This document shows positions 5,612 through 22,496 of a stretch of 22,873 nt of DNA, piece after piece (the first letter of the stretch is position 1; every line of letters begins with the position of its first letter). The notes below the pieces were generated by a model that had not been told where the DNA came from, made no database searches, and saw nothing but the letters and a program-made list of their open reading frames with translations. The stretch spans positions 233,274 to 256,146 of the forward strand of contig NW_003112965.1 in assembly GCF_000003605.2 (NCBI RefSeq), read 5' to 3'. The position numbers and the translations under genes were made by a program. The stretch comes from Saccoglossus kowalevskii. Lineage: Eukaryota > Hemichordata > Enteropneusta > Harrimaniidae.

Positions 5612-6642
5612 ACTACCTACCATAGACCAGACTAGCTTACAGAACATTATAAATTCACAAGCGTATCAAGCAAGATATAATCTGCATCACCACACTATTT
5701 GTTCAAATTTACTTATTACAAGAACCAGATTTGTATATTTGTCTAATGTTCTTAGTAATTTACTCTTCGCAGTGTGTACAGGTGGTGTTCTTTCTTATTT
5801 TATATTAATTTGAAAATCAATATGTGTGTGAGCAAACCCAGATGTTCTTTGTATGAAAATAGAACTCAGCATATGGGGGTATATTCATACCAACTATAAA
5901 GACATGTTTTGTTGACTTGTCCATGTGGCAGTTCATTAGTGGTTTAAATTTGTGTTTAGCTTACATGCCTGTATACTTCCCAGTATTGGAAATTTATTAA
6001 AATTGTGTACCGGGTACCAGACAAGGCTCACCAGACACCAGAGCAGATGTCTTTCAAATGTCACCACCCCAGCCAGAAAGGTACTAGGTCTGCATTAAAA
6101 ATTAGTGTGTTCCAATTTCAAGTAATGACACCAGGTCACTTTGTTTAGCAACAGTCCTCACTTTCATCTTGATTTTCAGATTGCTATGGCATACACCTTA
6201 TTTTCTTCTAGTGTGTGCTCCCATATTTGACATTCACCTAAAGGACTGCAAAATTGGTAGCTGAATTGAAGTACTAGAAATTCACATAAAATTAAAAATA
6301 TCTCTATTCAATAGATTATGGTTTGTTCTTCTCAAAAGTGAGTTGGTTATTTCTATGTTTTCACAATTGACCAAAACATTAATGGCTCCATTGAAAAAAA
6401 AAAATTACTTTTGAGCCCTCTGTATTGAAAAGACATTGGATGAGAATTTCGTTTTCACAATTTAAATTGTGGCATTCGAGACTCATCCAATCGAGTACAA
6501 GTAGTTGTAAGGGTGAATTTTTTGAATAAAGTGTTAAAGTTCCAGTTTATTCCCAGTTGTTCTTTGATTTTGATAACCATACCATAGCCAAGATATAATC
6601 ATGATGATATTGACAGCCCTATTTACAATTCCATGATTATAT
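5612..6642. other. Non-coding DNA, nothing recognised
   Basis: No exon, RNA gene or organised repeat was recognised. The first coding exon of the gene (Met plus about 28 residues in human) was looked for by eye here and not found. Confidence 0.5.
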
Positions 6643-8916: not shown

Positions 8917-9050
8917 ATACACTTGATGCTCAGAATATTGCAAAGACAGTGCCAACATTTCAACTTCGAGAGATTTGTCTAGAACCAATAAAGTTGGCTT
9001 TTGAATCCAAAAATAATAAAATAGCCAGCTTTGCTTTAGGAGGGTTACAG
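8917..9050 (+). CDS. ARFGEF3: ARFGEF3 exon A: end of first helix and start of DCB repeat
   Basis: The exon is 134 nt, preceded by TTGTTTTCTAG and followed by the strong donor GTGAGT. The first two bases complete a split codon, then the frame reads TLDAQNIAKTVPTF, LREICLEPIKLAFESKN and KIASFALGGLQ. It aligns without a gap to human BIG3 residues of about 29-73, where LREKCLLPLQLALESKN is the matching core. That LxxxCxxPLxLAxxSK pattern is the typical N-terminal HEAT-like helix pair of the DCB domain in large ARF-GEFs. The exon ends at a codon boundary. The preceding exon, with the Met, is missing, so this is the first visible coding exon. Confidence 0.87.
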
Positions 9051-10020: not shown

Positions 10021-10155
10021 AAATTAACTACAGATGAAAGATTCAAGTCAAACCTAAGTGAAGAAAATGAAGAAAATCAGATGACATCACAAATATTGAA
10101 CACCATTTCCATGATGCCTAGTTTACATGATGACTTGCAATTAGATATTTTAAAG
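10021..10155 (+). CDS. ARFGEF3: ARFGEF3 exon B: second DCB segment
   Basis: The exon is 135 nt, phase 0 at both ends, preceded by TTACTTTTCAG and followed by GTAATT, a weaker donor than its neighbours. It encodes 45 residues: KLTTDERFKSNLS, an acidic EENEENQ stretch, then TSQILNTISMMPSLHDDLQ and LDILK. The human counterpart starts KLLSEERF and continues LLNQILNAVKVTPSLNEDLQ, then VEVMK, with one residue less. In BIG1/BIG2 the equivalent piece starts KLIAYGHL, so this exon already favours BIG3. It joins in frame to exon C. Confidence 0.87.
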
Positions 10156-10625: not shown

Positions 10626-11262
10626 GATGTTGTCAATTCTACACAATAGTATATAGTATAAATTGAATTGATTGTATAAATGCTTGCTGTCTGTCGCAAT
10701 AGTAGAACTTCTGCTAACATGTGTAATATAATTTGCTAGAAAAAATATAATGTTGTTAATATTGTTATAAAAATATAACCTGTTTTATTTACCACTAGTT
10801 AAGTTTTAGCATTATACAATAAAATTAGTAATATTGACATTTCAGTTTATGCCCAGAGATTCTTTTCATATGTATATAGTATAACTACAGACCGTAGTTA
10901 TTTACAGATTGTCTGAATTGGGCAAAGGCAACAGATGTTTGGTCTTGTCTACATGTGTCAGATGTTGTGTGTGTATGTACATACATGTATATTCTATGGA
11001 TTAAAATAGTTAAGTGGTACTAAAAAGCAGGATGGGAATTTTTAATGTTTGTTAATAATAACATTTTCCCCCACAATGCTTTAAGTAAACCCAATATTGT
11101 CAGGTCCCATCACTTTTTACCAGTGACTGGTCATGTTTTCAGTTTTGTGAAAATGTGTAATACTTTTCTGTTTGGTGTTCGAAAACCTGTTGTTTGTTAT
11201 GCTAGTGTGTATGTGTCAAATATTTACAATAGCTATTGAAAAAAATGAAACAAAAATGACAT

Positions 11263-11692
11263 ATTTCTGAACATCAACAGATTTTCTAAAACAAAAGCAG
11301 AATGTGTTATAGATGTACATTAATATCCCAGCCATATGCATTTAACATGGCAATGCATTGTTGAGTTGTTATTTCTGAACATCAACAGATTTTCTAAAAC
11401 AAAAGCAGAATGTGTTATAGATGTATATTAATATCCTAGCCATATGCATTTAACATGGCAATGCATTGTTGAGTTGTTATTTCTGAACATCAACAGATTT
11501 TCTAAAACAAAAGCAGAATGTGTTATAGATGTATATTAATATCCCAGCCATATGCATTTAACATGGCAATGCATTGTTGAGTTGTTATTTCTGAACATCA
11601 ACAGATTTTCTAAAACAAAAGCAGAATGTGTTATAGATGTACATTAATATCCCAGCCATATGCATTTAACATGGCAATGCATTGTTGAGTTT
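11263..11692 (+). repeat. Tandem array, four 108-bp units
   Basis: The word ATTTCTGAACATCAACAG recurs at 11263, 11371, 11479 and 11587, an exact 108-bp period. The units are almost identical, differing at a few sites (for example ACATTAATATCCC against ATATTAATATCCT). The last unit stops at GTTGAGTT, three bases short. Each unit contains TGCATT and AATGCA separated by TAACATGGC, which could pair as a 6-bp hairpin. The array ends about 218 bp upstream of the acceptor of exon C. The near identity implies recent expansion or homogenisation. Confidence 0.95.
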
Positions 11693-11910: not shown

Positions 11911-11979
11911 TTTCTTCTAATGATTACCTGTTCTGAAGTATGTGTGATAAATGCGAAAACAGTTATTAAAATAGCAGAG
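11911..11979 (+). CDS. ARFGEF3: ARFGEF3 exon C: short 23-codon DCB exon
   Basis: The exon is 69 nt, phase 0 to phase 0, between TTTATTTACAG and GTAAGA. It encodes FLLMITCSEVCVINAKTVIKIAE, given here in two parts: FLLMITC.. and ..KTVIKIAE. Human BIG3 has a segment of exactly the same 23-residue length, starting VLLCITYTP and ending AVLKIAE. In BIG1/BIG2 the equivalent is LLCVTTPHCEIHEGSVLLAV. The match is modest in the middle (SEVCVIN against PTFDLNG) but length, phase and order are right. It can splice in frame either to 14035 or to 14649. Confidence 0.8.
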
Positions 11980-12055
11980 GTAAGAATTACCAGGGGTAAA
12001 ACCAATCAAATATATGTTGAATAAACTCTGATCTATTCTTGTCTTGAAACAAGTA

Positions 12056-12573
12056 TTACAGCCGTTCTGGAAATTATTCAGACAGTCAGTTCGCAAAATG
12101 GTCTTTGCCCTATCTAGACTTGTCGGCGCCACTTGATTGATGGGCATGTGGTATAAAATCTGAATTTGATACATAACGCACCAGTAATGTAAAAACAGCT
12201 TTTAGTTTAGCTCAAAACTGTCGCGAAACTGCAGCGCGTCCAATGCCAAGAAACTTTACTTTGAGCCTTCCCGCCAACGACGAGTTCATTAATACCTGGG
12301 ATTACTCAACACTCGGGAGTTGTTTTGTAAATTGCGCTATGTCAGGTGGACTCAGATGGTTATAACAATTAAAAATAACACTTTAAATGCATATACAACA
12401 TATAACCTGTTAATGTATGGTAACCAACGTGTGTCGTTTTGAAAACAGCGTTTTACCCGCATCTAGCAAGATAATGAAATGACCCTCAACTGTAGGCGTG
12501 CCAATGGCGCCATCAAGTCTAGATTGGAAAAGATATATTGCTAACTGACTGTCCGAATAATTCTCGGCTGTAA
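12056..12573. mobile_element. Foldback element with arms of about 70-76 bp
   Basis: The arm 12056-12131 (TTACAGCCG, GACAGTCAGTT, CTAGACTTG and GGCGCCA in order) is inverted at 12505-12573 (TGGCGCCA, CAAGTCTAGA, AACTGACTGTC, CGGCTGTAA). A loop of about 370 bp lies between, with CpG-bearing words such as CTGTCGCGAAACTGCAGCGC. No target duplication is clear. It may be one foldback or MITE-like element, or two copies of a dispersed repeat in opposite orientation. There is no transposase-like open frame. Confidence 0.65.
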
Positions 12574-13020
12574 AATTGCTAATATTATGCATCAGTCTTT
12601 GCATGCAGTGAAAACTGCTTCATTTTTTTGGGAAGAATAAAACTGAAACTGAATTTGTGCCCTCAGAAAGTACTAGATGTGTAAACTTTTGGTTAAGCAA
12701 TGAGTTAGCTGATAAGAGCATGTCACATGAATTGCTGATGATGAAACAATTGCCAGGCAAATATTTATTTCTAGAAATACCAATGTGAATGAGTGATTCT
12801 GTGAAAAAAAATGCTTAATGTTTGTCTTGTTTTTTGGCCACAGAAAACCATTATGGTATCACCATACTTAAACAGTAATGACTTTCTGGTTTACTTATAT
12901 TACAATTGTATGGATGCAGAAATTGATTGTTTTAAGTCGATCACACATGAACATTCATCGTAAAATGAAAGATATGGCTTCACTGAATCAAACTATCAGT
13001 ATCGTCGAGAACCAGAGGTC

Positions 13021-13370
13021 TGCAACGCGCATAGTAGTCTATGGTGACATCATGCCAAGATCCCATTCAAGTCTCATCATGCCAAGAATCCCATTCAAGT
13101 CTCATCTCGAGACTGATGCTACGACCTTCTGACATGACATAGGCGGTTTATAATACAATAAAACATGTATTACCACATTCATAGTGAAAAAATGTAATAC
13201 ATCGAAAATGTACAGAAAATATAGTTATCGTAATCCATCATATCGTGAGCAGCTATTTTGATCCACCTGGACATCCCAGTATCCTAGTTACCTTGGGCTT
13301 GCGCGTTCGCATTTTTCTGAGCTGGAACGCTTATGTGATGGGATCTTGGTATCATGTCACCGTAGTTGCA
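13021..13370. repeat. Inverted pair plus 28-bp direct duplication
   Basis: CTATGGTGACATCATGCC followed by AAGATCCCAT (about 13038-13066) is inverted at about 13338-13366 as ATGGGATCTT followed by GGTATCATGTCACCGTAG. TGCAAC outside the left arm has its inverse, GTTGCA, outside the right arm. Directly after the left arm a 27-28-bp unit (CATCATGCCAAGATCCCA..) is duplicated in tandem. This again suggests a decayed foldback element, perhaps related to the block at 2461-2975, which shares TGCCAAGATCCC. Confidence 0.5.
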
Positions 13371-14034
13371 AACCCCCAGTAATGTACCTGTGCGAGAACT
13401 TAATGAAACAACTGATGGCTCAACAAAATTACTTGACATAGACACCAATTACCGAGATAACAGAATCAATGCAATAAATGAAAAAGATGAAAACATTAAC
13501 ATTAATTATGGATACTTTAATGAAATTAATGTTATGCAGTGAAATTCTCAAAATTATGTACCAGATACCAGGGTATGTAACTTTAAAATTTTACCAGTCT
13601 TGCCAGAAAGTAACCAGCCATGCATTAACAATTATTTTAAAATACCGGTACTACTATTTCATGTAAGTACCACAAAACATGTAATTTGAACTTGTTATTC
13701 TAAATCTTTTCTTATCAGCCAGGGCCTTGGCATGAAATGTCATCCAATAATATTATTTAGTAAAATTGCATTTTCAAAATTATCATTGAAGCAGACCATT
13801 TTTGTAATTTTTAATATTTACCATCCAAACTGAAAAGTCTCAAGCACATAGAAGGCAGTAATTTCAAACAGTAATTTTTGTGATTCCGAGTAAATACAAA
13901 GAAATACCCAAATTACTTGATACATGTTGGATATTTCGAATATTTGAGTTATCGGTACATTATGTAACTAAATTCTCAAGAAGTCATATTGTTTCAACTT
14001 TCATGCCGTGTTTTGCTCACTCACTTATTTTCAG

Positions 14035-14214
14035 CTTTGCACTGACGTGTATGAAATCAGTAAAGTTCATGTCAAGAATAAAGTCAAGGCAACACTGACT
14101 GGAACACTCAGAAACTTTGCCAAGTTTTATACCTCAGACCTACATGTAAATGAGCCCACTATTTCCCATCATGCCTCAATTGAGCCCCCTTGTTCCCAAG
14201 ATGGCATGAACAAG
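14035..14214 (+). CDS. ARFGEF3: Candidate duplicated ARFGEF3 exon D (alternative or additional to exon E)
   Basis: The exon is 180 nt, phase 0 at both ends, between a good acceptor CTCACTTATTTTCAG and the donor AAG|GTAATG. It encodes LCTDVYEISKVHVKNK, then VKATLTGTLRNFAKFY, then a non-conserved tail (TSDLHVNEPTISHH.. to QDGMNK). The first 35 or so residues align with the next exon (ICTSTFKASHQAS..VKATLTQMLSS) with one gap, and with human VCIETYISSC..VRATLSQML. Human BIG3, as I recall it, has only one such segment, so this is an extra copy. It can follow exon C and precede exon E or F in frame, so it could replace exon E or be added to it. The longer tail might be the equivalent of a different linker. 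Retention of an open frame and both splice sites argues against a dead copy. Confidence 0.65.
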
Positions 14215-14648
14215 GTAATGTCAACCATCAGAGTTACATCACCAATCTAATTCTTTATCCAGTTATGGCATTTCTGCTTGTATAACATGACCTTTGACCC
14301 TTATCTTGCATGTGCATTATTGTCATATATTGAGTACGATATTGCTGGATAAAGAAATAGATGGCTGACTTCATTGCTTTGCTGTTAAAATCAGATGCTA
14401 AATATTACCATGTACATCACAGTAGTTTGCCCAAATAGACTGAGCTAAAGTTAATAAGAAAAATTATTACATTTGTGTTTCATTCGTTCAGTATGATTCT
14501 AAAATCTTGATTCTCTGATGTATTTTGTCATGTTTTCTGCTGTCACATGACATGGTGATGTCATCATGTTTTTAATAGTGAAGTTTGCAGTACTTTACAT
14601 GTACACTTCCTCCATTTTGATTGTGAGCTTGCTGACTTACTCCCACAG
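14215..14648 (+). other. Intron between exons D and E
   Basis: This 434-nt intron separates the two homologous exons and runs from GTAATG to TTACTCCCACAG. It contains a perfect 7-bp hairpin at 14547-14564 (ATGACAT, loop GGTG, ATGTCAT). I saw no coding or repeat content beyond CATG-rich words. Confidence 0.6.
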
Positions 14649-14768
14649 ATCTGTACATCTACATTTAAAGCAAGTCACCAAGCTAGCACACATACTGCTG
14701 TTAAAGCAACATTAACTCAAATGCTGAGCTCTATCAGTCTTCATCTTAAAGACAGACAAAATCACAGG
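14649..14768 (+). CDS. ARFGEF3: ARFGEF3 exon E: conserved ATLTQML segment of DCB
   Basis: The exon is 120 nt, phase 0 at both ends, between TTACTCCCACAG and GTAAGG. It encodes 40 residues: ICTSTFKASHQASTHTA, VKATLTQMLSSISLHL and KDRQNHR. Human BIG3 matches over the full length (VCIETYISSC, TAVRATLSQML, LRQRQEN), and BIG1/BIG2 share TAKATLTQML. It is therefore the canonical exon at this position. The helix ending in ATLTQML closes the DCB domain, and the charged end (KDRQNHR) starts the linker to HUS. In frame with exon C upstream and exon F downstream. Confidence 0.87.
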
Positions 14769-14929
14769 GTAAGGTATCATGGTGTAACAGTAATTATGTT
14801 AAAATGTTGGCATGTAAAGGTCATAATGTTGTCATAAGATTCTCATATTGTAGTCATGTGATTCTTATAAATTTAATTGTATGGTGTCATGTGATAGTCT
14901 TGTTTTAATCATATAGGTAGCATGGTATG

Positions 14930-15092
14930 ATCATGTGATAGTCATGTGGTTATGGCATAACCATGTGATAGTCATTTGGTTATCATGGCGTAACCATGTG
15001 ATAGTCATGTGGTTATCATGGTGTAATCATGTGATAGCCATGCGGTTATCATGGTGTAATCATGTGATCCTCATGTATCTAGCATGGTGTAG
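14930..15092 (+). repeat. 33-bp minisatellite, about five units
   Basis: Units of the form ATCATGTGATAGTCATGTGG followed by TTATCATGGTGTA repeat from 14930, with starts at 14960, 14993 and about every 33 bp after. The first unit lacks three bases and the last diverges (CCTCATGTATCTAG). Decayed copies extend left to about 14820. The units are rich in the CATGTGAT / ATCATG pair and can fold back on themselves. Confidence 0.88.
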
Positions 15093-15465
15093 ATAAATAT
15101 CACTTTGTCATTGTATACCTTTAGTATTCTTTATATATACTGTTTTACACGAGTTTTTATGAAAAATCTTATTGTGAATGTTGTGAATGATTTCTTTTCT
15201 TAGCATGGTGCTTGTCTTTGTGAGAATCATATACTAAATATATTGCATGATTTTAAATGAATCTGAGACATCATTCATTTCATACACATTACATTCAATT
15301 CACACATCTTTCCATGTACATCTGTTGCAATATTACAATTTATTCTCTTTCCTACACGTACATTATAATGTTATTTTATGCACCACCTGGATACCTACAA
15401 TATGTTGAAATCTTGATACTTCTGTCTGTGGTGATTAAGTACATGTACCTTAGTGGTATATAGAA

Positions 15466-15776
15466 TATTAGACTATGGAGCAATAACCTTAGATGGCCAC
15501 AGAGATTTGTTGAGAATGAGAGCGCCGTGAAACATGTCTTTCTTCTAGTGTTCCATTCTCACTCTACATCACATTGACATTCTAATTACCATGGTTACGT
15601 AGATCACAGGGACAGTAGATTACTAGACTACAGACCAATAACCTTAGATGGCCACAGAGATCTTGTTCAGTATGAGAGCGCCATGAAACTCATCTCTCTA
15701 CTAGTGTTCCATTCTCACTCTACATCACAATGACATTCTAATTACCATGGTTACATAGATCACAGGGACAGTAGAT
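15466..15776 (+). repeat. Tandem duplication of a 155-bp unit
   Basis: Copies at about 15466-15620 and 15621-15776 share CAATAACCTTAGATGGCCAC, TGAGAGCGCC, TAGTGTTCCATTCTCACTCT and ATCACAGGGACAGTAGAT in the same order with about 90% identity by eye. The copies abut exactly. There is no open frame or terminal inverted repeat. Confidence 0.92.
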
Positions 15777-16799
15777 GCAACGACAAAACAAACACAATTA
15801 TTGTGGCTCTCTTCCTCTGAACTAAATCATGGTGGCCATTTTAATCTAAGATCTATTGCTGAGTGAATGAGAGTGGTATATTTCCTACATGCTACTATTG
15901 TCTACCACTGTGAAATGTACTGGTCAGACTGTTACATTGGAAAAGTAAGACCAAATTAACAATATTTGAAACTCTGAAATACTGGAAATCTTGTGCATGA
16001 CATTTAACAGTGTTTTAAAGTAGTTTGGACTAAACTTATTAATTTGATTACCGTAATTGATTTGATTAAGAATTATATTTTGACGCTATCAATGTAATGT
16101 CTAAGAAACATACTAACAGCATTTGACAGCTATACAATATGATATTTTCAAATTTATTGGTGTTTTGGAACAATTATGTGACATATTTCATATCATAATG
16201 GTACGTAAATTTTCAGATATAGATAATCTTCTAGATTTTCCAATTTCCATGATTTTCGGAGTATCTCAATCTTGGTGATTATTTTGGCTTCCAAGAACAA
16301 TAACAGCATCATATTGCAGTTAAACTGTGTTAGTGTGTTCAGAATGCGAAATATAGTTTGATGACCATACATTATTTGTCTGCATTTTGTGAGCAATAGA
16401 ATGAAATAAAACTGTGGTAAAAGTCAAGGAAATCCACCGATAAATTTTAATGGCAGCCAACAAATTTTAAATTGGATCTTTGTTGAATACTGAAATATTT
16501 TTTATACAATTTGTGTTCAAATTCAGTGTTCTCTTCAGGCAAAGTCAAAATAAATATTAATTTTTTTGATGTCAATGTATGACATGCTGCGCAAATGATG
16601 ACATTTGACTGCATAATTTTGTTAAAAGTCATTGAGTAAGTTGTGTACAACTTAAAGGGAACACTGTTTATACCATCAAATACGTCATACAATTATACCA
16701 AAACACCTATAAATCCCAGAATGTGACTTTAAATTTGCTGTAATAGTTAGTGTCTGCATTGTAGTATAACTGTAGAATTATTATTACCCATATTTACAG

Positions 16800-16842
16800 A
16801 ATGATGATGCTGATGATATCGTAGCTGAATTCCATACTAATG
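16800..16842 (+). CDS. ARFGEF3: ARFGEF3 exon F: 43-nt acidic linker micro-exon
   Basis: This small exon lies between CCATATTTACAG and GTAAGA. It starts in phase 0 and ends one base into a codon. It encodes NDDADDIVAEFHTN plus the first base of a Gly codon completed by exon G. Human BIG3 has a similar short acidic linker here (ENPDVPQDF, then G). Sequence match is weak, as expected for a linker, but the phase is exactly what joins exon E to exon G, which supports it strongly. Nothing else in the 2.1 kb between E and G fits. Confidence 0.75.
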
Positions 16843-16959: not shown

Positions 16960-17047
16960 GTGCAAGCAGTGGTCCAACTCAGGCACTATGTGAAGATGTT
17001 GTAAATCTCTTAGAATATTTTTGCAAGAAATTAGAAAATGCACACAA
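16960..17047 (+). CDS. ARFGEF3: ARFGEF3 exon G: start of HUS-like region
   Basis: The exon is 88 nt, acceptor ATTTCATGCTAG and strong donor AA|GTAAGT. The first two bases complete a Gly codon, and the last two bases (AA) are completed by the first base of the next exon. It encodes ASSGPTQALCEDVVNLLEYF and CKKLENAH. Human BIG3 reads STVESLCDDVVSVLTVLCEK, then LQAA, so LCxDVVxxLxxxCxKL is the conserved core. The intron before it is only 117 nt (16843-16959), the shortest of the gene. Confidence 0.86.
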
Positions 17048-18298: not shown

Positions 18299-18403
18299 AA
18301 AAAGTGACAAGTTTGAAGATTTGTTATGTTTGTTGCCGTCCGATTTTTTTCTAAAAGGTGTATCAGAAAGGTACAGCCTTGGGTCAATTCATGCACCATT
18401 CAG
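18299..18403 (+). CDS. ARFGEF3: Candidate ARFGEF3 cassette exon H with two frame-keeping donors
   Basis: After the strong acceptor GATTTCTGTCCTCTAG the frame set by exon G stays open: KKSDKFEDLLCLLP, SDFFLKGVSER, then YSLGSIHAPF, with a stop just beyond. Two donors, AAAG|GTACAG after 18370 (72 nt) and TTCAG|GTGATG after 18403 (105 nt), give lengths divisible by three, so either form would still join exon I in frame. Human BIG3 as I recall it has no such segment: exons G and I alone give a gapless fit there. It would insert 24 or 35 residues in a loop between HUS helices. The evidence is splice sites and frame only, with no family match, so it may be spurious. Confidence 0.35.
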
Positions 18404-19814: not shown

Positions 19815-19931
19815 GTTGACTGGGCCACAGAGTCAGCAACTTGTTGTGTTGTATTTGGAGTCTATATTAGCCATCCTGAGCAGTTCATCAGCAGACCTTA
19901 AACTTAATGATAAATTCCTGAATCTAGTCTG
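19815..19931 (+). CDS. ARFGEF3: ARFGEF3 exon I: HUS-like helix pair
   Basis: The exon is 117 nt between TTTTACCAATAG and the strong donor CTG|GTGAGT. Its first base completes a Lys codon from exon G (or an Arg codon from the candidate exon H), and it ends two bases into a Trp codon. It encodes LTGPQSQQLVVLYLESILAI, then LSSSSADLKLN and DKFLNLVW. Human BIG3 has SQQLQLLYLECILSVLSSSS, then MHLHRRFTDLIW, with the serine run conserved. In BIG1/BIG2 the equivalent is the VVSLQLLLSIL helix of HUS. A branch-and-tract region of ordinary strength precedes it. Confidence 0.88.
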
Positions 19932-20653: not shown

Positions 20654-20966
20654 GCAAAATCTTTGCCCATGTCTAATCTCTATTCTTGGAAACCCAAAGA
20701 ATTTAAAGAATATTGTGTCATCACATAGCTTTGACAGCGACTCATCTCGGGGTAAGGCAGACCATGGACGAGGATCTGGTTGCTCGGCAACTGCACCAGC
20801 TGTAATGAGTACCGCAGCGAAGAGTATCTATGCTATTGGGGTTGAGTTATTACGGATTGTTGGGAATGTTGGATCTTTACGACCGGTGTTAGCATCTTTA
20901 TTTCATAGATTTCTACTGTACCCTCCACCACAACATCGACATGAAGCACTCAAAGCAGTGAAAGAT
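20654..20966 (+). CDS. ARFGEF3: ARFGEF3 exon J: large conserved HUS exon with GRGSGCS motif
   Basis: This is the largest exon (313 nt), between TTTTTTCACAG and GTATGT. It completes the Trp codon of exon I and ends at a codon boundary. It encodes QNLCPCLISILGNP, a serine-rich loop (SSHSFDSDSSRG), ADHGRGSGCSATAPA, the helix SIYAIGVELLRIVGNVGSLR, then PVLASLFHRFLLYPPPQHRH and EALKAVKD. Human BIG3 reads NLCPALIVILGNP, a serine-rich loop, SDHGRGSGCSCTAPA, LVRLVGSVDSMKPVL and LLYPPPQHR.EA, so this is the strongest orthology evidence in the window. BIG1/BIG2 have an equivalent helix pair ending in EIFLYILE without the GRGSGCS insert. The serine-rich loop is a plausible phosphorylation site (inference). 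Confidence 0.93.
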
Positions 20967-22000: not shown

Positions 22001-22496
22001 TGTTTCGTGATCTGATTCAAGAGGCCATTTTTGTGCTAAAAATCATCAAAATCAAACATTTTTCAGCTGTTTACAGATGGATTATGTTCAAAATTGGTAT
22101 ATACATCAGACATTACAGGTTCCTGATGCACATCATTTTGTTTTTCAGATAAGATTCAAAATGGCTGACTGGCGACTATTTTGTTTTAATGATTGGGCTT
22201 CTAGAGCCATATCTCTTAAATGCTTTGACTGATTACATTCAAATTTTATATATTCGGTATACATCATGTTATATATATATACATGTATTCAAAAAGGACT
22301 GATTTTGAATGCTGTTCCAGAGTAATATCTCTCAATACAGACAAGTACTTGTTTGACGATCAGATACAAATGTCAATCATTTTAACGTTAAAAAAAATCA
22401 TATTCCTGACATGGTTATATTCCAGCTATATTACTATAAACAAAACTATATCTTAAATTTGATAACTAATGGGGACTGTGCCATGCATGGTTTGTA
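22001..22496 (+). repeat. Dispersed repeat R1, copy 2 (complete right end)
   Basis: The copy is collinear with 1-442 in the same orientation. Differences are small substitutions and an insertion of about 14 bp (TTCCAGCTATAT) near 22422. Upstream lie GAAATGCCTGGACCAATCAC and AATCAAACTTCACACATACA words, which may belong to the same repeat and would then lie before base 1 for copy 1. The right end is set where the copies diverge after GCCATGCATGG. Confidence 0.85.

Follow-up and report, generated by a model that had tools for sequence, protein, structure and literature searches.

A candidate tandem exon pair in the DCB domain of a BIG/ARFGEF3-type gene and its possible alternative use

Exons of a mutually exclusive set often meet the folded protein in the middle of a structural element: of those mapped to structures, 87% start or end within a secondary structure element according to Hatje et al. 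(PMC5740500), who argue that simple addition or skipping is not an option for exons whose boundary falls within a helix. For most human clusters of exclusive exons, the same paper reports no obvious enforcing mechanism.

The DCB domain of BIG1 forms a dimer through helices 7 and 8, with Arg176, Tyr182 and Asn203 named in the interface. Helix 8 also touches Arl1 via Thr193, Lys195, Thr197, Gln200 and Asn203, and changing Gln200 to Glu prevents copurification of Arl1 (all from PMC4956616). In human BIG3 the corresponding helix is the binding site for PHB2, and replacing Gln165, Asp169 or Gln173 by alanine strongly reduces the binding; Gln165 is the only one of these three critical residues that is common to BIG1 and BIG2 (PMC4096751). 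The sequence of the human BIG3 peptide is QMLSDLTLQLRQR (PMC5431889). The protein, also called ARFGEF3, binds Rab2A-GTP (PMC6639074), and its Sec7 region is described as being without the catalytic glutamate and the catalytic Sec7 motif (PMC4096751). Little is known of how BIG3 is recruited to membranes or brought together with its partners.

As a case in which these two subjects may meet, we describe a pair of similar exons in a stretch of 22,873 nucleotides from Saccoglossus kowalevskii (the whole stretch that was analysed, hereafter the window).

Gene and exon layout

The + strand of the window carries an open animal gene with DCB and HUS regions, of BIG/ARFGEF3 type. Its exons, lettered A to I, and the other features needed below are as follows.

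8917..9050, + strand: exon A, DCB domain; starts within a codon and ends in phase 0; Pfam DCB match
10021..10155, + strand: exon B, DCB domain
11911..11979, + strand: exon C, DCB domain; ends in KIAE, phase 0; predicted to supply the beginning of helix 7, as placed by alignment to BIG1 and from PMC4956616
14035..14214, + strand: exon D, putative duplicate of exon E; 180 nt, 60 codons, no stop; predicted to encode helix 8, where Gly stands in place of Gln200, and the last part of helix 7; a tail of 23 residues if the donor at 14214 is used
14035..14145, + strand: short form of exon D, 37 codons via a weaker in-frame donor
14215..14648, + strand: 434-nt intron separating D from E
14649..14768, + strand: exon E, canonical copy of the pair, open over its 40 codons (120 nt); predicted to encode helix 8, with the QML shared by BIG1 and human BIG3, and the last part of helix 7
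16800..16842, + strand: exon F, linker after the DCB domain
16960..17047, + strand: exon G, linker to the start of the HUS region
19815..19931, + strand: exon H, HUS region; top splice score among the 10 candidates listed
20654..20966, + strand: exon I, HUS region

Joined as A-B-C-E-F-G-H-I, these exons give 339 residues without a stop, and with D in place of E (A-B-C-D-F-G-H-I) they give 359, again without a stop. The frame also stays open when both are included (399 residues) or neither (299 residues). Thus, with lengths of 180 and 120 nt, the frame permits D, E or both, as the original prediction had it.

The product can be assigned to a family from its domains. The Pfam DCB family (PF16213, cut-off 25.6 bits) matches the E form at 55.3 bits and the D form at 50.2 bits, and the HUS family (PF12783) follows at 23.5 bits (E ~5e-5), which is below its cut-off of 27.3, the window stopping inside that domain. 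Over the PHB2-helix region, exon E shares 7 of 13 residues with the human BIG3 peptide and 4 of 13 with BIG1, a comparison of this short stretch only. The Sec7 region lies outside the window. The DCB match with a HUS match after it, together with the peptide match, supports a gene of BIG/ARFGEF3 type, and on this point the original prediction is supported. We take the gene to be BIG3/ARFGEF3 rather than BIG1/2, partly from the features of the human protein and partly from the match of exon E to the peptide. Human BIG3 is not known to have more than one copy of this exon.

Several other searches returned nothing. The E form had no match in NCBIfam, exons H-I had none in the PDB, and positions 13900-14900 had none among phages by blastn. 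Exon I (104 residues) found no relative in the viral_contigs and genome_contigs sets (48 and 292 pattern matches), where animals are not expected.

Both D and E begin and end in phase 0, are bordered by AG and GT, and lie downstream of exon C. Splice sites were scored with Shapiro-Senapathy type weights. On this scale the acceptor of D ranks within the best 1.9% among 1,075 AG sites, and its donor within the best 2.6% among 1,333 GT sites; ranked likewise, the acceptor and donor of E stand at 2.1% and 0.3%. The donor of D is the weaker one, with a score of 6.5, near that of the exon B donor (6.7). The coordinates, frames and splice borders proposed for the two exons, as well as the gap of 434 nt between them, are reproduced here, and by these weights the splice sites can be called good, as had been claimed. 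The predicted extra tail of 20 residues in D fares less simply. A second in-frame donor at 14145, scoring 3.6 against 6.5 for the one at 14214, would give D 37 codons (E has 40), so the tail is not certain: it is present with the 14214 donor and absent with the 14145 donor.

The GC content of D is 0.42, a value reached by 3.3% of 2,270 windows of 180 nt, and that of its tail (14146-14214) is 0.48, the highest among the stretches compared. About 25 nt past the D donor there is a hairpin with 24-nt arms (14239-14262 and 14345-14368, 88% complementary), which could influence use of that donor.

Repeats are found at several places in the window. A 108-bp tandem repeat in four copies, 98% alike, occupies 11262-11691 and ends about 220 nt upstream of exon C. 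The intron after E contains a 33-bp tandem repeat (5.3 copies, 14921-15091) and a 156-bp tandem repeat (2 copies, 90%, 15461-15776), and dispersed repeat blocks that are 93-94% identical lie near both window ends (98-442 and 22136-22496). On the + strand between G and H, positions 18299-18403 form an in-frame, phase-compatible candidate exon of 105 nt. Its splice score sum of 15.7 makes it the second-best independent candidate of the 10 listed, and it is possibly a cassette exon; as a duplicate of exon H it was rejected, with no homology found (p = 0.23).

Relationship of exons D and E

Aligned as proteins, D and E reach a local BLOSUM62 score of 39, which is matched by 0.24% of 20,000 shuffles of D, and a global alignment of the 37-codon D with E gives p = 0.0003. 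The local alignment begins at residue 1 of both exons and in the same phase. When the whole window is searched in six frames with tblastn, D and E are each other's best match after self.

Two explanations would deny D a present role as a second copy of E. One holds that D is a chance open stretch that resembles E and is no duplicate. The exon is short, with 10 of 30 aligned residues identical, and the mutual tblastn E-values over the window are 0.11 and 0.26, all of which would suit such a coincidence. Against it stand the agreement in register and phase and the outcome of two controls. When the flanking introns (C-E and E-F) were subjected to 500 dinucleotide shuffles, 252 shuffles gave at least one phase-0 candidate exon, but none of these candidates reached a score of 39, the best being 31. 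The Pfam DCB score, 39.6 bits when neither D nor E is included, rises by 10.6 bits to 50.2 when D is inserted between C and F, and to 50.6 bits with the 37-codon D, whereas ten shuffled versions of D gave 38.4-40.0 bits against a baseline of 39.7 bits, all ten without gain. This gain is evidence independent of E, and a chance origin of D seems very improbable to us. The other explanation is that D is a former exon now out of use and decaying. It could account for the weaker donor and for the poorer resemblance of D to BIG1: local scores against that protein are 33 for D and 57 for E, and the D form finds BIG1 in the PDB at an E-value of 2.2e-6, with the alignment reaching into D, against 2e-9 for the E form. 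However, D has kept 60 codons without a stop or frameshift, and both of its splice sites, despite a DNA identity to E of about 42%, and the DCB profile still recognises it, so we regard decay as distinctly unlikely.

Searched alone, neither D nor E matched any Pfam family, and D alone found no BIG protein in the PDB, the only hit being an unrelated ribosomal protein (E 1.2). Taken together, the shuffles, the DCB gain and the shared register and phase support the view that D and E are homologous tandem DCB exons, and here the original prediction, in which both encode the same DCB segment, is upheld.

Other possible relationships in the window were considered and set aside. A DNA repeat as the origin of D was rejected, since blastn-short found nothing in the window, besides self, longer than 10-14 bases. 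The search for a third copy covered 17 candidate exons of the + strand and 4 of the opposite strand, and none was convincing; the best against E after the pair itself, an intronic stretch at 5984-6121 with a score of 31, gave a DCB score of 39.1 bits when inserted, with no gain. A Pfam MENTAL match seen with the D forms only (E ~7e-4, 19.7 bits, below the cut-off of 22) was taken as chance.

The exons agree at 47 of 111 aligned DNA positions over 37 codons (16, 17 and 14 at the successive codon positions). This is little above the identity of unrelated AT-rich DNA, and thus the duplication looks old. In the VKATLT block, D and E differ at 4 bases, all of them silent, and 6 of the 10 residues identical between the exons are written with different codons. 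These differences suggest that both copies of an old duplication have been kept under protein selection, an argument that rests on one genome and is partly circular because the block was chosen for its protein identity.

Use of one exon or both

For judging how the exons are used, it matters where they enter the folded domain. In the numbering of PDB entry 5j5c the Cys is residue 178, which puts the C/D or C/E junction between BIG1 residues 176 and 177. Because Arg176 and Tyr182 belong to the helix 7/8 interface, the junction with exon C is probably inside helix 7, and the exon would supply helix 8 together with the final part of helix 7. The original prediction of a swap of the last DCB helix therefore stands as regards helix 8 and needs widening, in that the segment also includes the end of helix 7. 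A junction within helix 7 favours use of one exon at a time, as D placed before E cuts E from the start of that helix; if neither were included, helix 8 would be missing, which argues against skipping both.

The reading we prefer, and consider a reasonably good bet from the sequence, is an ancient tandem exon pair of which each transcript would carry a single copy, joined to C and F, yielding two isoforms. In this view an internal coding exon of a BIG3/ARFGEF3-like gene was duplicated in tandem long ago; D and E would both be transcribed and used alternatively, and the resulting proteins would be identical except for the final helical hairpin of the DCB domain.

Exclusive use of D and E is probable in our judgement rather than enforced by anything we could locate. 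Since each exon is a multiple of three in length, C-D-E-F and C-F also keep the reading frame, and the frame enforces nothing. A lock in the form of a short intron, a U2/U12 clash, the frame or docking RNA pairs was sought in the sequence, and no clear one was found. The D-E intron, at 434 nt, is not short and contains an unremarkable CTGAC, resembling a branch site, 17 nt before E, and both exons have GT-AG sites. The region 11980-16799 contains 24 inverted repeats, a count made without a shuffle control. Competing RNA pairs as the exclusion device gained no clear support: in three intron-pair tests, 3, 43 and 7 of 60 shuffles reached the observed pairing, and not even the best of these, 3 of 60, is convincing.

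D might instead be a cassette exon, with E constant and D sometimes added (C-D-E-F), lengthening the protein by 37 or 60 residues. The frame permits this, the D-E intron looks spliceable, and the DCB score with both exons included, 52.8 bits, is compatible with joint inclusion; moreover, neighbouring exons that resemble each other are in many cases not an exclusive pair (PMC5740500). In such a transcript, however, E would lose its direct join to the KIAE end of exon C, where the first part of helix 7 is encoded. In addition, on the fly X chromosome only 90 of 16,180 non-exclusive exons share the features of exclusive exons (PMC3228551), a figure to be read with the fact that D/E fails the similarity cut-off used there. 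Those WebScipio defaults (15% or more similarity, and lengths no more than 20 residues apart; PMC3228551) are one predictor's filter and not a definition. A relative score computed in the same style is -1% for the 60-codon D (difference 20) and 10% for the 37-codon D (difference 3), so that the pair falls below the 15% similarity cut-off at either length of D. On balance we rate the cassette reading as unlikely, with some weight left to it. Nothing direct speaks for a further reading, in which D would be part of a different type of transcript that starts from an alternative promoter or ends early, and we find it hardly credible at all, given that the acceptor and donor of D are both in phase to join C and F.

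Comparison with known systems

Tandem duplicated exon pairs are known as a kind, and we found no earlier report of this one: among the literature matches listed, none describes a DCB exon pair in BIG3/ARFGEF3, which does not prove that there is none. Like the exclusive pairs covered in PMC9741552, PMC5740500 and PMC3228551, D and E are neighbouring homologous internal exons of the same phase that occupy the same place in a folded domain, with changes on a binding face. They differ from those pairs in that their similarity is under the usual prediction cut-off, their lengths may differ by 20 codons, and their exclusive use is a prediction.

Both the D and E forms align with the BIG1 DCB domain bound to Arl1 (PDB 5ee5 and 5j5c; PMC4956616). 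Of the five helix-8 contacts with Arl1, E keeps Lys195, Thr197 and Gln200 and D keeps Lys195 and Thr197, with Gly at position 200. Position 203 is Ser in E and Arg in D, and residue 182 of the dimer interface is Phe in E and Tyr in D. In the PHB2-binding helix of human BIG3, residues 165-177 (PMC4096751 and PMC5431889), the 7 matches of E include Gln165. At positions 165, 169 and 173, E has Gln, Ser and His and D has Gly, Asn and Phe; thus E keeps one of the three PHB2-critical residues, the glutamine of the family, and D none, and PHB2 binding is not confidently predicted for either form.

The original prediction had also proposed that replacing one exon with the other could change dimerisation or partner choice. 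By analogy with BIG1, where helices 7 and 8 are the dimer interface and helix 8 binds Arl1, and with BIG3, where the helix binds PHB2, this is a well-founded possibility. A more specific idea is that a GTPase or a PHB2-like partner docks on the glutamine that the E form retains. The D form, which has glycine at this place followed by a bulky aromatic face, would drop or change that partner. The gene would then encode a BIG3-family scaffold whose docking helix is switched by D/E, with D built for loss or change of partner and both forms long selected; we offer this only tentatively. If it is true, the pair is a natural exon swap of the Arl1/PHB2-binding helix and a ready-made test of the role of that helix.

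Human GBF1, BIG1 and BIG2 belong to the same protein family and are likewise alternatively spliced. Their observed splice variants are reported to lie, without exception, in interdomain linkers (PMC553965), whereas the difference between D and E lies within the DCB domain; alternative use of these exons, if true, would break the linker-only pattern of the human proteins.
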